DNA of 64,000 nt from Polaribacter sp. BAL334 (GTDB lineage Bacteria > Bacteroidota > Bacteroidia > Flavobacteriales > Flavobacteriaceae): positions 124,001-188,000 of the forward strand of contig NZ_JADWOV010000271.1 in NCBI RefSeq assembly GCF_015767435.1, written 5' to 3'. A model generated the notes under the pieces. That model saw nothing but the letters and a program-made list of their open reading frames with translations. It was not told where the DNA came from and made no database searches. Positions 60,610-64,000 of the stretch are shown piece by piece (positions within the stretch are counted from its first letter, which is position 1; each line of letters opens with the position of its first letter). The position numbers were made by a program, and so were the translations under genes.

Positions 60610-61191
60610 ATGTTTCAATTAGGAAAAACAATCGTTTCTGAGGAGATTTTTGAAAAAGACTTTGTTTGCAATCTTGCTGCTTGCAAAGGTGCTTGTTGTA
60701 TTGATGGTGAAGCAGGTGCTCCTTTAGAAGAAGAAGAAACTAAAATTTTAATGGAGATTTATCCAAAAGTGAAACCTTTTTTACGGAAAAAAGGGATAGA
60801 AGCCATTGAAAAAAAAGGAACTTTTGTCATGAATGAATCTGGAGAATTTGAAACACCCTTGATTGATAATGCTGATTGTGCGTATGTAATTTTTGATAAA
60901 AAAGGGACAGCACTTTGCGCCATTGAAGAAGCCTATAACCAAGGAGAAGTAACTTGGAAAAAGCCAGTTTCTTGTCATTTATACCCCATAAGAGTGAAAG
61001 ATTATAGCGAATTTGCAGCTGTAAATTATCATAAATGGGAAATTTGCGATGATGCTTGTACTTTAGGAAAAGAATTGCAAGTGCCTGTTTATAAGTTTGT
61101 GAAACAAGCTTTGGTTCGTAAATTCGGTCAAAATTGGTATGATGAATTGGAGAAAGTTGCGGAGAAACACTTAAAAAACCGGGATTTTTAA
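60610..61191 (+). CDS. DUF3109 cysteine-rich protein
   Basis: A 193-residue cytoplasmic protein with a metal-binding-like cluster FVCNLAACKGACCIDGEAGAPL near the N terminus and further cysteines in DNADCAYVIF, ALCAIEEA, SCHLYPIR and EICDDACTLG. Matches DUF3109, related to the YkgJ type of presumed iron-sulfur or zinc proteins. Function unknown. Its last 21 bases overlap the convergent kinase gene. Confidence 0.9.
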   Translation: MFQLGKTIVSEEIFEKDFVCNLAACKGACCIDGEAGAPLEEEETKILMEIYPKVKPFLRKKGIEAIEKKGTFVMNESGEFETPLIDNADCAYVIFDKKGTALCAIEEAYNQGEVTWKKPVSCHLYPIRVKDYSEFAAVNYHKWEICDDACTLGKELQVPVYKFVKQALVRKFGQNWYDELEKVAEKHLKNRDF

Positions 61192-62502
61192 AACTACTCT
61201 TGTTCCTAATGAATTTTTAAAATCATCTTCTAAATCTTTGTAAATTATTGTATAATCATTTTTATATGATTTTACAAAATTACTAAGCCTATTCTTTGTT
61301 AGGTGTATTCCAATTGACTTTCGTTTTATAGACTTTTCTAATTTTATTTTTTCAGCAGCTTTTCTACCTATTCCATTATCTTCAATAGAAATAACTATAT
61401 GTTTATTGTCTTTTTTATCAATAGAAATAAATATTTTTTTATCTTTTTGTTTTGTTGATAAACCATGCCAAATAGCATTTTCTAAGAAAGGTTGTAAAAT
61501 TAAAGGAGGAATTTTTATGGTGTTCAATTTAATCTTTTCATTAATGATTATTTGAAAATCTATTTCGTTAGAAAATCGAATGTTTTCAATTGATATATAT
61601 AGTTCAATAGTTTCTAATTCTTCTTGTAAAGTGATTTCTTTACTATTGGAAGCTTCTAGAATTTTTCGAATTAGTTTTGAAAATTTTGTTAAATAATGAG
61701 CCGCATTTTTTGTTTCATTATTAATTATATAGTGTTTTATTGAGTTTAAAGCATTAAAAATAAAATGAGGATTCATTTGAGAACGTAGAGAAATCAGTGC
61801 TAACTCATCAATTTTGTTTTTTAGTTTTATTTGTTCTTTTAATGATGAAATTTGTTTTTGCATTTCTATATTTACCTGATGTTTTAATTCTTCGTTTTCA
61901 GACATTTTTTTTACTAAAACAGTATTAGCCTTATCTAGTTCTTTATTTACAAGTTGTTGTTTGTAGCCAATTGCAAGTGTAAAAAAGATGTTTTCTAAAA
62001 TAGCTCCAAAATAAAACAGGTAAAAATATTTATTAGAATCTTCAACAGATATATTAATAGATTTATAAAATAATATTGAGGTTAATAAATTTAAAGAAAT
62101 AATGCCCAATATAATATGAAATTTAATACCAGTTTTTGTTCTTAATATTAAAGGGATGCTTAATAGAGTTAAGATACTAAAAACAGGAAAAACTAATGTT
62201 AGGTAAATAAATCTCATCAGTCCTTGATATAGGAACTCATCTATAAAAATAGCTGAGCAAATAGCCACAGATGTTATGATAATTATCCATTTATTTATGA
62301 TATAAAAAGAATAAAATTCTTTTTTAAAATTTAAAATTGATAATACAAATAATGAATAAAATATTATTGAAAATGTTTGAAAAGGAAAATGTAATACTTT
62401 AAATAAATAGGCATTATTTATAAAAAAATCTTCAAAAAAAACATTATCTATTCTTCTTAACGTTGGTAAAAAACAAAACAAAGCAAATAAACTGTAATAC
62501 AA
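61171..62502 (-). CDS. LytS-type sensor histidine kinase with 7TM input region
   Basis: A membrane sensor kinase, 443 residues from the TTG at 62502. Seen: hydrophobic helices over residues 1-180, a coiled coil (ELKHQVNIEMQKQISSLKEQI), the His_kinase motif ISLRSQMNPHFIFNALNSI with phosphoacceptor His246, and an ATPase part with ENAIWHGL and DNGIGRKAAEKI. The open frame continues upstream to 62652 and encodes another clear helix (GIGILFIGILGYLSIYHLVL), which would make seven helices, the normal 7TMR-DISM count; no ATG or GTG exists there. The start is therefore uncertain. It pairs with the LytTR regulator upstream. Confidence 0.87.
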   Translation of the reverse strand: MYYSLFALFCFLPTLRRIDNVFFEDFFINNAYLFKVLHFPFQTFSIIFYSLFVLSILNFKKEFYSFYIINKWIIIITSVAICSAIFIDEFLYQGLMRFIYLTLVFPVFSILTLLSIPLILRTKTGIKFHIILGIISLNLLTSILFYKSINISVEDSNKYFYLFYFGAILENIFFTLAIGYKQQLVNKELDKANTVLVKKMSENEELKHQVNIEMQKQISSLKEQIKLKNKIDELALISLRSQMNPHFIFNALNSIKHYIINNETKNAAHYLTKFSKLIRKILEASNSKEITLQEELETIELYISIENIRFSNEIDFQIIINEKIKLNTIKIPPLILQPFLENAIWHGLSTKQKDKKIFISIDKKDNKHIVISIEDNGIGRKAAEKIKLEKSIKRKSIGIHLTKNRLSNFVKSYKNDYTIIYKDLEDDFKNSLGTRVVLKIPVF

Positions 62503-62645
62503 ATAATATGGTATTTTATTTTGAAAATAAAGTACTAAATGATAAATGCTTAAATAGCCTAAAATACCTATAAAAAGTATTCCTATTCCGTTTTCATTAC
62601 TATTTTCTAAAATGGTTTTAATGATGTTATTTTTTAATAATGGGA

Positions 62646-63380
62646 TTATAATTTATCTAAAAAGTCTGTTTTTCTTTGTCTTGAAACAGGAATTTTTATG
62701 TTGTTTTCTAAAATTACATAGCCATCTGTTTTTAAAAATTCTTTGATTTTATGAAGATTTACTATATATGAATTATGAATTCTAAAAAAAGAATCTTGGG
62801 GTAATAGTTCGTTAATTTCTTTAAGTTTTTTAGTAACAACAATTTTCTTTTGATTGTCTAAAAAGAACGTAGAATAATTTCCATCAGAAATAACGTAATA
62901 AATATCATCTGGTTTTAAAAAAATTAATTTTCCATCTGAGGTTATGGTTATTTTTTTATTGAAAAGTTTGTTGTTAAATTTTATTAAAATATTCTCAATT
63001 TTTTCAGCATTAAAATCTTTAAATAATTGGTTTTTTATTTTAGTAATTGTTTCTTTTAAATCATCAGAATCTATTGGTTTTAGTAAATAATCAATAGCAT
63101 CTTTTTTTAATGCTTTAATAGCATACTCATTATAAGCAGTTGTAATTACTACAAAAAAATTTCTTTTATTAATTTTATCTAACAATTGAAAGCCATCCAT
63201 ACTAGGCATTTCAATATCTAAAAAAAGGCAATCAAAAGTATTGTCATTTATATAAGACAATGCTTTTTCTGGCTCCGAAAATGTAGCAACAATTTTAACT
63301 TCACTTTCAAAATTATTAAGTTCCCAAGCTAAACTTTGTATTGCTTTTGGCTCATCATCAATAATAACTGCTTTTATCAT
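62646..63380 (-). CDS. LytTR family response regulator
   Basis: A 244-residue regulator: receiver domain with IIDDE, phospho-acceptor Asp55 in FLDIEMPSMDG, and KPI (YLLKPIDSDDL); then a LytTR DNA-binding domain with FFRIHNSYIVNLHKIKEF and IPVSRQRKTDF. The ATG at 63380 (MIKAVIIDDE) fits the domain start and a -7 box TAAATTTG at 63403-63396 excludes the longer frame. Its own target is probably the nearby direct repeats at 63515-63544. Confidence 0.95.
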   Translation of the reverse strand: MIKAVIIDDEPKAIQSLAWELNNFESEVKIVATFSEPEKALSYINDNTFDCLFLDIEMPSMDGFQLLDKINKRNFFVVITTAYNEYAIKALKKDAIDYLLKPIDSDDLKETITKIKNQLFKDFNAEKIENILIKFNNKLFNKKITITSDGKLIFLKPDDIYYVISDGNYSTFFLDNQKKIVVTKKLKEINELLPQDSFFRIHNSYIVNLHKIKEFLKTDGYVILENNIKIPVSRQRKTDFLDKL

Positions 63381-63395
63381 AAAACTTAATTTCAT

Positions 63396-63403
63396 CAAAT
63401 TTA
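63396..63403 (-). promoter_or_regulatory. -7 element of the LytTR regulator gene
   Basis: TAAATTTG on the minus strand, 16 bases before the ATG at 63380. No clear -33 box. Confidence 0.45.
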
Positions 63404-63514
63404 AAAATTATTTATAGAAACTTCTTTTAAAGTTGTGCAAACTGCAATTTTTTAAACATAAAAAGATATAATTGATACATCAATAACAATTCTGAATTTA
63501 CAAATAGATTATTT

Positions 63515-63544
63515 ACCAATTGTACAAAATTTATAACCAACCAT
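63515..63544. promoter_or_regulatory. candidate LytTR binding site (two direct repeats)
   Basis: ACCAATTGT (63515-63523) and ACCAACCAT (63536-63544), 12-base gap; each continues as TACAAA. On the minus strand they read ACAATTGGT and ATGGTTGGT, which fit 8 of 9 and 7 of 9 positions of the published LytTR repeat [TA][AC][CA]GTTN[AG][TG], with the known 12-base spacing. Located between the LytTR regulator and the divergent secreted protein. Confidence 0.6.
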
Positions 63545-63557
63545 ACAAATCAGCTTT

Positions 63558-63565
63558 TATTTTTG
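63558..63565 (+). promoter_or_regulatory. -7 element of the divergent secreted-protein gene
   Basis: TATTTTTG, an exact TAnnTTTG match, with no TTTG at -33; the LytTR-like repeats occupy that position instead. The ATG at 63620 follows after a leader of about 50 bases. Confidence 0.5.
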
Positions 63566-63572
63566 ATCCTCA

Positions 63573-63590
63573 TTAAACAAATTTGTTTAA
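63573..63590. repeat. perfect 18-bp palindrome in the leader
   Basis: TTAAACAAATTTGTTTAA is its own reverse complement. It lies just after the predicted transcription start of the gene at 63620. Possible operator or part of an RNA hairpin. Confidence 0.5.
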
Positions 63591-63619: not shown

Positions 63620-64000
63620 ATGAAATTTTCAAAAGTTTTAATTTTAAGCTGCCTTACAATAGGAGTTTCAAATTCTATAAATGCTCAATTATTAAAAAGA
63701 TTAAAGGAAAAAGTAGAACAAAAAATTGATAACAAAATAGACAAAGAAACAGACAAAGTAATTGACAAAGCTTTAGATGAGAAAAAACAAAACTCTGAAA
63801 CTTCAGAAAAAGTAAATCTTCCTTTAGTAATTACTTTCACTAACAGCATACATATAGAAATTTCTAATTCAGCAGATAACCAGGTTATTGAAATGATAGT
63901 CCTTACAAGCGATGATCCAGAAATTTATGGAGTAATTGCAACTAGCCAAGAGCAGAATAATGAGGCAAATGTTATAACAGTAGTTTCAAAAAAAACAACC
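63620..64000 (+). CDS. secreted coiled-coil protein, partial (C terminus outside window)
   Basis: 127 residues are visible. Cleavable signal MKFSKVLILSCLTIGVSNSI ending in NAQ, then a charged coiled coil with a four-residue rhythm (QKIDNKIDKETDKVIDKALDEKK), then a strand-rich part beginning LPLVITFTNSIHIEISN. No family can be assigned from this fragment. It is divergent from the LytTR regulator and carries LytTR-like repeats and a -7 element upstream, so it is the likely target of that two-component system. Confidence 0.75.
   Translation, partial: MKFSKVLILSCLTIGVSNSINAQLLKRLKEKVEQKIDNKIDKETDKVIDKALDEKKQNSETSEKVNLPLVITFTNSIHIEISNSADNQVIEMIVLTSDDPEIYGVIATSQEQNNEANVITVVSKKTT

Follow-up and report, generated by a model that had tools for sequence, protein, structure and literature searches.

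Two direct repeats at 63515-63547 of the window, by which we mean the whole 64,000-nt stretch of Polaribacter sp. BAL334 DNA that was analysed, are a real and strongly conserved predicted site of the neighbouring LytTR response regulator. From the sequence we infer, with high confidence, that they form the operator at which the phosphorylated regulator binds and activates the divergent gene. Computation showed that the operator is conserved, that its spacing is fixed, that it is located together with orthologous regulators and that it is found at the target gene where this gene has been relocated. In the proposed mechanism, an active two-component system would place the regulator on both half-sites, which are two helical turns apart and share one face of the helix. 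The operator would lie just 5′ of the promoter, with the −7 element 31-38 nt past the operator end, and the bound regulator would activate transcription of the divergent gene, which here encodes a secreted protein.

The paired repeats match the LytTR operator pattern

The promoter-distal half-site ACCAATTGTACA occupies 63515-63526 and the promoter-proximal half-site ACCAACCATACA occupies 63536-63547, both on the forward strand and at a period of 21; each was recognized in the sequence and by pattern search and is kept in orthologues. The first-pass annotation had described two nine-base LytTR-pattern repeats 12 bases apart beside a LytTR regulator gene, ACCAATTGT at 63515-63523 and ACCAACCAT at 63536-63544, and both the letters and the spacing are as it reported. 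These nine-base repeats are the left parts of a longer conserved half-site, ACCAnnnnTACA. The adjoining gene (62646-63380, reverse strand) encodes a LytTR response regulator with Response_reg and LytTR domains assigned by Pfam, the DNA-binding LytTR domain (PF04397) scoring 78.8 bits against a cut-off of 22.6. In the accessible text of one report, LytTR sites are 9-11 nt direct repeats with 11-13 nt between them (PMC4847170), a range that holds the 9-nt core repeats found here 12 nt apart. In the available part of another, the halves ACCACTTAT and ACCGCTTAT, separated by 12 bp, stand 5′ of an activated promoter, and ACCACTTAT-like halves occur at autoactivated promoters (PMC6193735).

The pattern ACCANNNNTACA-N9-ACCANNNNTACA, allowing up to two mismatches, matched the window once, at 63515-63547 and with no mismatch, against an expectation of 0.02 from shuffled sequence. 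The first-pass annotation had proposed a genome search for the same paired repeats, and a scan of the 3.3-Mb genome with a related pattern returned the pair as the sole site within one mismatch. Two other places were found within two mismatches and eight within three, compared with one and five for a reversed control, and because these counts are close to those of the control we take the weaker sites of the genome to be approximately background.

The operator is conserved upstream of orthologous regulators

The spacer was also compared in relatives, the second check that had been proposed. The best 80 of 246 loci from a regulator search were kept as the orthologous set, up to 600 nt upstream was scanned in each, and pairs were scored as matches out of 18 core positions. 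A divergent-facing pair of at least 14/18 is present in 78 of these 80 loci, the exceptions being L074 and L077. L074, with 2 nt of upstream sequence, was left out of the set of 80 regions, which comprises the other 79 loci and the window; 79 of these 80 regions keep a pair of at least 14/18. At the stricter threshold of at least 15/18, a pair with period 21 occurs in 74 of the 80 regions; each other period between 14 and 29 gives 0-11, and the mean of 20 Markov-shuffled sets is 0.0 of 80. All 79 loci of the best 80 that were placed in a regulator tree (L017 was left out, its translation ending after 4 aa) are listed as Bacteroidota, mostly Flavobacteriaceae, and the window's regulator forms a long branch (0.44). 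Since the rows are related, the regions do not represent independent events; those that bear a pair span several well-supported clades of the tree.

The probable promoter of the divergent unit lies at a fixed distance from the operator

We found that a TTTG starts 34 nt past the operator end in 51 of the 80 regions, including the window (63582-63585), and at any other offset in at most 7. By column, the 79 rows from the best 80 loci and the window hold A at offset 31 in 74 rows, T at 34 and at 35 in 78 each, T at 36 in 57 and G at 37 in 69. Based on this offset and the column conservation, the −7 element of the divergent gene is most likely CAAATTTG at 63578-63585 on the forward strand, and the pair thus stands upstream of the promoter core at a fixed distance. 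The −7 element of Bacteroidota has the form TAnnTTTG, from which CAAATTTG departs at its first position. The first-pass annotation had instead named TATTTTTG at 63558-63565 on the forward strand as a consensus −7 box. This string exists, but its TTTG, at offset 14, is peculiar to the window among the 79 rows, and it was rejected as probably not a promoter element.

The divergent promoter had also been described as having no −33 box, and in this the relatives agree: the 79 rows contain no TTTG or TTG at a fixed −33 place and are just T-rich at offsets 7-10, in keeping with a promoter that depends on assistance. This arrangement bears on whether the regulator, from 63515-63547, instead represses the divergent gene. 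The direction of binding cannot by itself separate activation from repression, and an alternative promoter core at 63558-63565 is possible, but 30 nt separate the end of the operator, which lies upstream of the core, from the conserved −7 element, the missing −33 element fits a promoter in need of an activator, and LytTR-type repeats that stand 5′ of the core activate in the published examples, as far as the available parts of those papers describe them (PMC6193735, PMC4227749, PMC10602386). We therefore regard repression as unlikely.

Regulator-facing pairs occur in some clades, and in L077 the operator accompanies the target gene

The earlier suggestion that the system perhaps also switches on itself found no support in the window. 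Upstream of the regulator, a −7-like box TAAATTTG (63398-63405, reverse strand) was recognized in the sequence, and in register with it stands a weak single half-site, GCAGTTTGCACA (63434-63445, reverse strand), which matches 4/9 of the core. At offsets 33-35 the half-sites that face the regulator reach just 3/9 and 4/9; the second, regulator-facing operator of an autoregulated LytTR operon is thus lacking in the window, and self-activation is unsupported there.

Elsewhere such pairs are present. A regulator-facing pair of at least 12/18 with the same TTTG spacing occurs in 32 of the 80 regions (22 at offset 33 and 10 at offset 34), and the 16 other offsets tested gave 0-1 of 80 each. These 32 pairs belong to 18 loci of the peptide type, 5 of the third RNA type, 5 of a small G group, 2 of the secreted type and 2 others (output types are described below). 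No regulator-facing pair was found in the 21 Tenacibaculum-type loci or in the Polaribacter-type loci, and L013-L015 each have one regulator-facing half-site of 6-7/9.

On these counts it could be argued that the main role of the operator is self-control of the regulator-kinase operon and that the divergent gene is a bystander, especially as L077, from Leeuwenhoekiella, has a regulator-facing pair of 14/18. We hold this to be very unlikely. The regulator-facing pairs are separate and oppositely oriented, the divergent-facing pair is present in the 21 Tenacibaculum-type loci where no regulator-facing one was found, and the window itself has nothing better than the two weak half-sites. L077 provides a natural test of the target assignment. 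In this locus the gene behind the kinase encodes a relative of the secreted protein, 417 aa long, and directly 5′ of this gene, away from the regulator, lies an operator matching 18/18 with TAGTTTTA at the −7 position. Upstream of the L077 regulator there is no divergent-facing pair, and the 14/18 regulator-facing pair that remains is the weaker one. In L077 the operator thus stands with the target gene and not with the upstream region of the regulator.

Taken with the orientation of the operator and the fixed distance to the −7 element, L077 supports the earlier proposal that the two-component system would switch on the gene at 63620. The form of the operator, its divergent-facing direction and the missing −33 box survived from that interpretation, and the named −7 box and self-activation in the window did not. 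The interpretation had also been made without the kinase context and without the RNA-like or mini membrane peptide output that most relatives have.

A secreted coiled-coil protein co-occurs with a particular kinase

The divergent gene starts at 63620 on the forward strand, continues beyond the last base of the window (64000) and ends at contig position 188408; it encodes a 262-aa secreted protein with an N-terminal coiled coil and a signal peptide that, judged by eye, ends ...NSINAQ. The protein has no Pfam match above cut-off, DUF4412 (PF14371) included; that domain is present in a longer relative from L014 (28.1 bits, cut-off 21.6). An AlphaFold model built on a two-row alignment (L014, L015) was set aside because its mean pLDDT was 31.5. 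The same kind of secreted coiled-coil protein is encoded divergently from the regulator in L013-L015 and L044, the copies in L013 and L044 ending at a contig edge and L044 being assigned from 27 aa.

At E 1e-8 the family is present in 14 of 97 genomes, and one stretch was taken from each of the 13 genomes besides the window's own, leaving out further copies in G004. Seven of the 13 stretches contain a regulator, and six of these seven carry an operator of at least 15/18 5′ of the secreted gene (L187 is the exception); among the six stretches without a regulator, one (L194) has an operator and five have none. The gene order secreted gene, operator, regulator is found in L013-L015, L044, L186, L190, L193, L195, L196 and L197, the last of which is probably the same sequence as L015. 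L194 (G011:C12:28381-29130) has an internal TAA in its secreted-protein gene and a 17/18 operator 5′ of it, with no regulator in the 19-kb stretch.

Downstream of the window's regulator, a gene at 61171-62646 on the reverse strand encodes a histidine kinase with a 7TMR-DISM_7TM domain by Pfam, which we call HK2. In 79 of the best 80 of 246 loci, the regulator is followed by a stretch like the N-terminal part of the TPR histidine kinase of L013 (HK1). A search for HK2 detected it in 5 of these 80, namely four with the divergent secreted protein and L077, a count in which some loci end 3-4 kb past the regulator start and might hide a copy. Each of the seven regulator-bearing stretches with a secreted gene matches HK2 (L186 in part, at its edge), and the window and L193 have HK2 alone, with no HK1. 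The secreted-protein version of the locus thus co-occurs with a particular 7TM kinase, suggesting that the two work together, and this pairing of kinase and output gives a direct prediction of what the kinase senses: the secreted protein may be its signal or feedback partner. In L193 the ATG start codon of HK2 overlaps the regulator stop. The window reads ATC at this place (62644-62646), and by eye no in-frame ATG, GTG or TTG precedes the first membrane segment. HK2 of the window may therefore be poorly translated or have an unusual start, and with ATC where the start is expected signalling may be weak here.

Beyond the window, a gene that starts 18 nt past the secreted-protein gene (L012 2428-4134, contig 188427-190133) may be co-transcribed with it from the same operator; its 568-aa product bears a type IX secretion tail (Por_Secre_tail).

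The divergent output differs between clades

Regular expressions gave a first assignment of output classes, which for 18 loci was then decided by eye. Across the best 80 of 246 loci and the window, 5 have the secreted protein, 21 a Tenacibaculum-type RNA, 8 a Polaribacter-type RNA, 11 a third RNA type and 21 a membrane peptide. Of the other 15, four small groups account for 11, and the rest are 2 single cases, L074 and L077. In 40 of the best 80 loci the divergent output is therefore a short, terminated, RNA-like unit that lacks a long reading frame.

The Tenacibaculum-type RNA is present in 24 copies in its 21 loci, of which 22 were aligned, the near-identical copies L033 and L070 being omitted from this alignment (A1). 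It has the 5′ sequence AAUACACAAGGGG and two hairpins, a conserved central one whose loop is G-rich and a terminator. Seven of its 22 pairs change on both sides. Six of these are in the terminator; the seventh belongs to the central hairpin and is seen in just one row, so that the central hairpin is supported by conservation and folding and not by covariation. Seven aligned copies of the Polaribacter-type RNA form two hairpins with G-rich loops; both partners vary in 5 of the 30 pairs, and 3 of these 5 belong to the second hairpin. Across 38 aligned copies of the three types, the longest open reading frame is 18 aa (Tenacibaculum type 0-17 aa, median 8.5, 22 rows; Polaribacter type 11-18 aa, 7 rows; third type 7-17 aa, 9 rows), and from inspection of these lengths we take all three as putatively non-coding. 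One candidate mini-ORF of the Tenacibaculum type, an eight-codon TTG frame (M-[IVM]-NWGINQ), is present in several rows and broken in others, and was rejected.

Tandem RNA units, each with its own pair, occur in L034, L040, L089 and L022, and also in L152; L050 has a second RNA match without a listed 14/18 pair. Thirteen loci with an RNA-model match above 35 bits were retrieved, several shared with the regulator-search set. Nine of them carry the pair and a TTTG at offset 34; in L143 the distance of the pair is different, and L144, L145 and L154 are without a well-placed pair. G090 has four RNA copies, three with a pair and two of those at the usual distance. Searches of 16 loci against Rfam gave no family at gathering score, and every match from permissive scans over parts of L058 and L037 lay well below it. 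The operator is thus linked to RNA-like units that fall below Rfam thresholds in the loci searched. In the window's genome, the RNA models R1-R3 gave nothing above background, in searches of more than 40 genomes at a time whose stricter filters may lose weak matches: the best E values were 0.004 for R1 and 4.1e-4 for R2, levels as in other families of the order, and R3 had no match at E 0.001.

Two further patterns were seen beside these units. A second conserved stretch, approximately AGTTTAGTTAATTATTGGGG and then a terminator hairpin, was recognized by eye, either following the first RNA unit or replacing it, in L058, L085, L087, L090, L068 and L078. L016, L017 and L019-L021 have a divergent unit with repeated TGCTATGAAA-like motifs, followed in four of the five (not L016) by a GGGGATTTTTCCCC terminator.

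The conserved membrane peptide, M[KR][KR]C followed by a hydrophobic and then a charged part, is 38-55 aa long and single-pass, and is found in L035, L054 and 19 others (Maribacter-type) of the best 80 loci; the L035 copy had no Pfam match.

Output follows the regulator tree, with 13 changes against a minimum of 10 and a mean of 50.1 when shuffled. These data suggest a module that keeps its operator and regulator but has had its output (secreted protein, small RNA or membrane peptide) exchanged between clades, a natural experiment in the replacement of an output behind a retained regulatory site. That the repeats are instead a chance match in A+T-rich sequence, or the site of a different regulator, which could bind the pair as the genome has 11 LytTR matches, is extremely improbable given the 0.02 matches expected in the window, the 79 of 80 orthologous regions that keep the pair by this regulator and an output class that tracks the regulator tree.

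Relation to known LytTR systems

With the pair read as an activating operator, the window looks like an ordinary LytTR operator 5′ of an unstudied secreted protein, and it supplies a LytTR regulator of Bacteroidota with a predicted target and with an operator whose sequence and spacing are ready for use. More tentatively, the relatives point to a possible Flavobacteriaceae-wide, agr-like module with a fixed operator and exchanged outputs: the secreted coiled-coil protein, accompanied by a dedicated 7TM kinase of which it is perhaps the signal or feedback partner, a mini membrane peptide, or a set of undescribed small RNAs whose hairpin loops are rich in G. Among the top matches of a literature search, which included few subscription papers, no LytTR-controlled RNA in Bacteroidota was found, nor any description of the RNA and peptide outputs.

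RgaR of Clostridioides difficile is of the LytTR type, and VirR with its VR-RNA in C. perfringens is a comparable system. As described in the available part of its report, the RgaS-RgaR system has direct repeats 21 bp apart (G-51/G-72) 5′ of the small RNA spoZ, and no divergent layout is described there (PMC10602386). It shares with the loci described here the regulator type, the repeat spacing and a small RNA target; organism and kinase differ. In staphylococcal agr (AgrA, P2/P3, RNAIII), according to the text accessible, a LytTR regulator activates a divergent regulatory RNA (PMC4227749). The two arrangements are alike in the regulator, in the paired direct repeats within a shared intergenic region, in a divergent output that is RNA-like in many relatives and in a regulator-facing pair in some clades. 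They are unlike in phylum, in the kinases, which here are of TPR or 7TMR-DISM types, and in the RNA units, which here are short and in two types have G-rich hairpin loops. A divergent RNA under a LytTR regulator is found, by layout, in the 40 relatives among the best 80 loci, whereas the output in the window codes for a secreted protein.

E. coli YpdB and streptococcal HdrR/BrsR likewise use repeats of 9-11 nt, 11-13 nt apart and upstream of the promoter, with ACC.CTTAT-like sequence in the sections available (PMC4847170, PMC6193735), whereas the half-site here is ACCAnnnnTACA and the promoter is of the Bacteroidota −7 form. Finally, Rfp18 of Flavobacterium psychrophilum, compared by its description in the accessible text, is like the predicted RNA units in being a structured sRNA in Flavobacteriaceae (PMC9723704).
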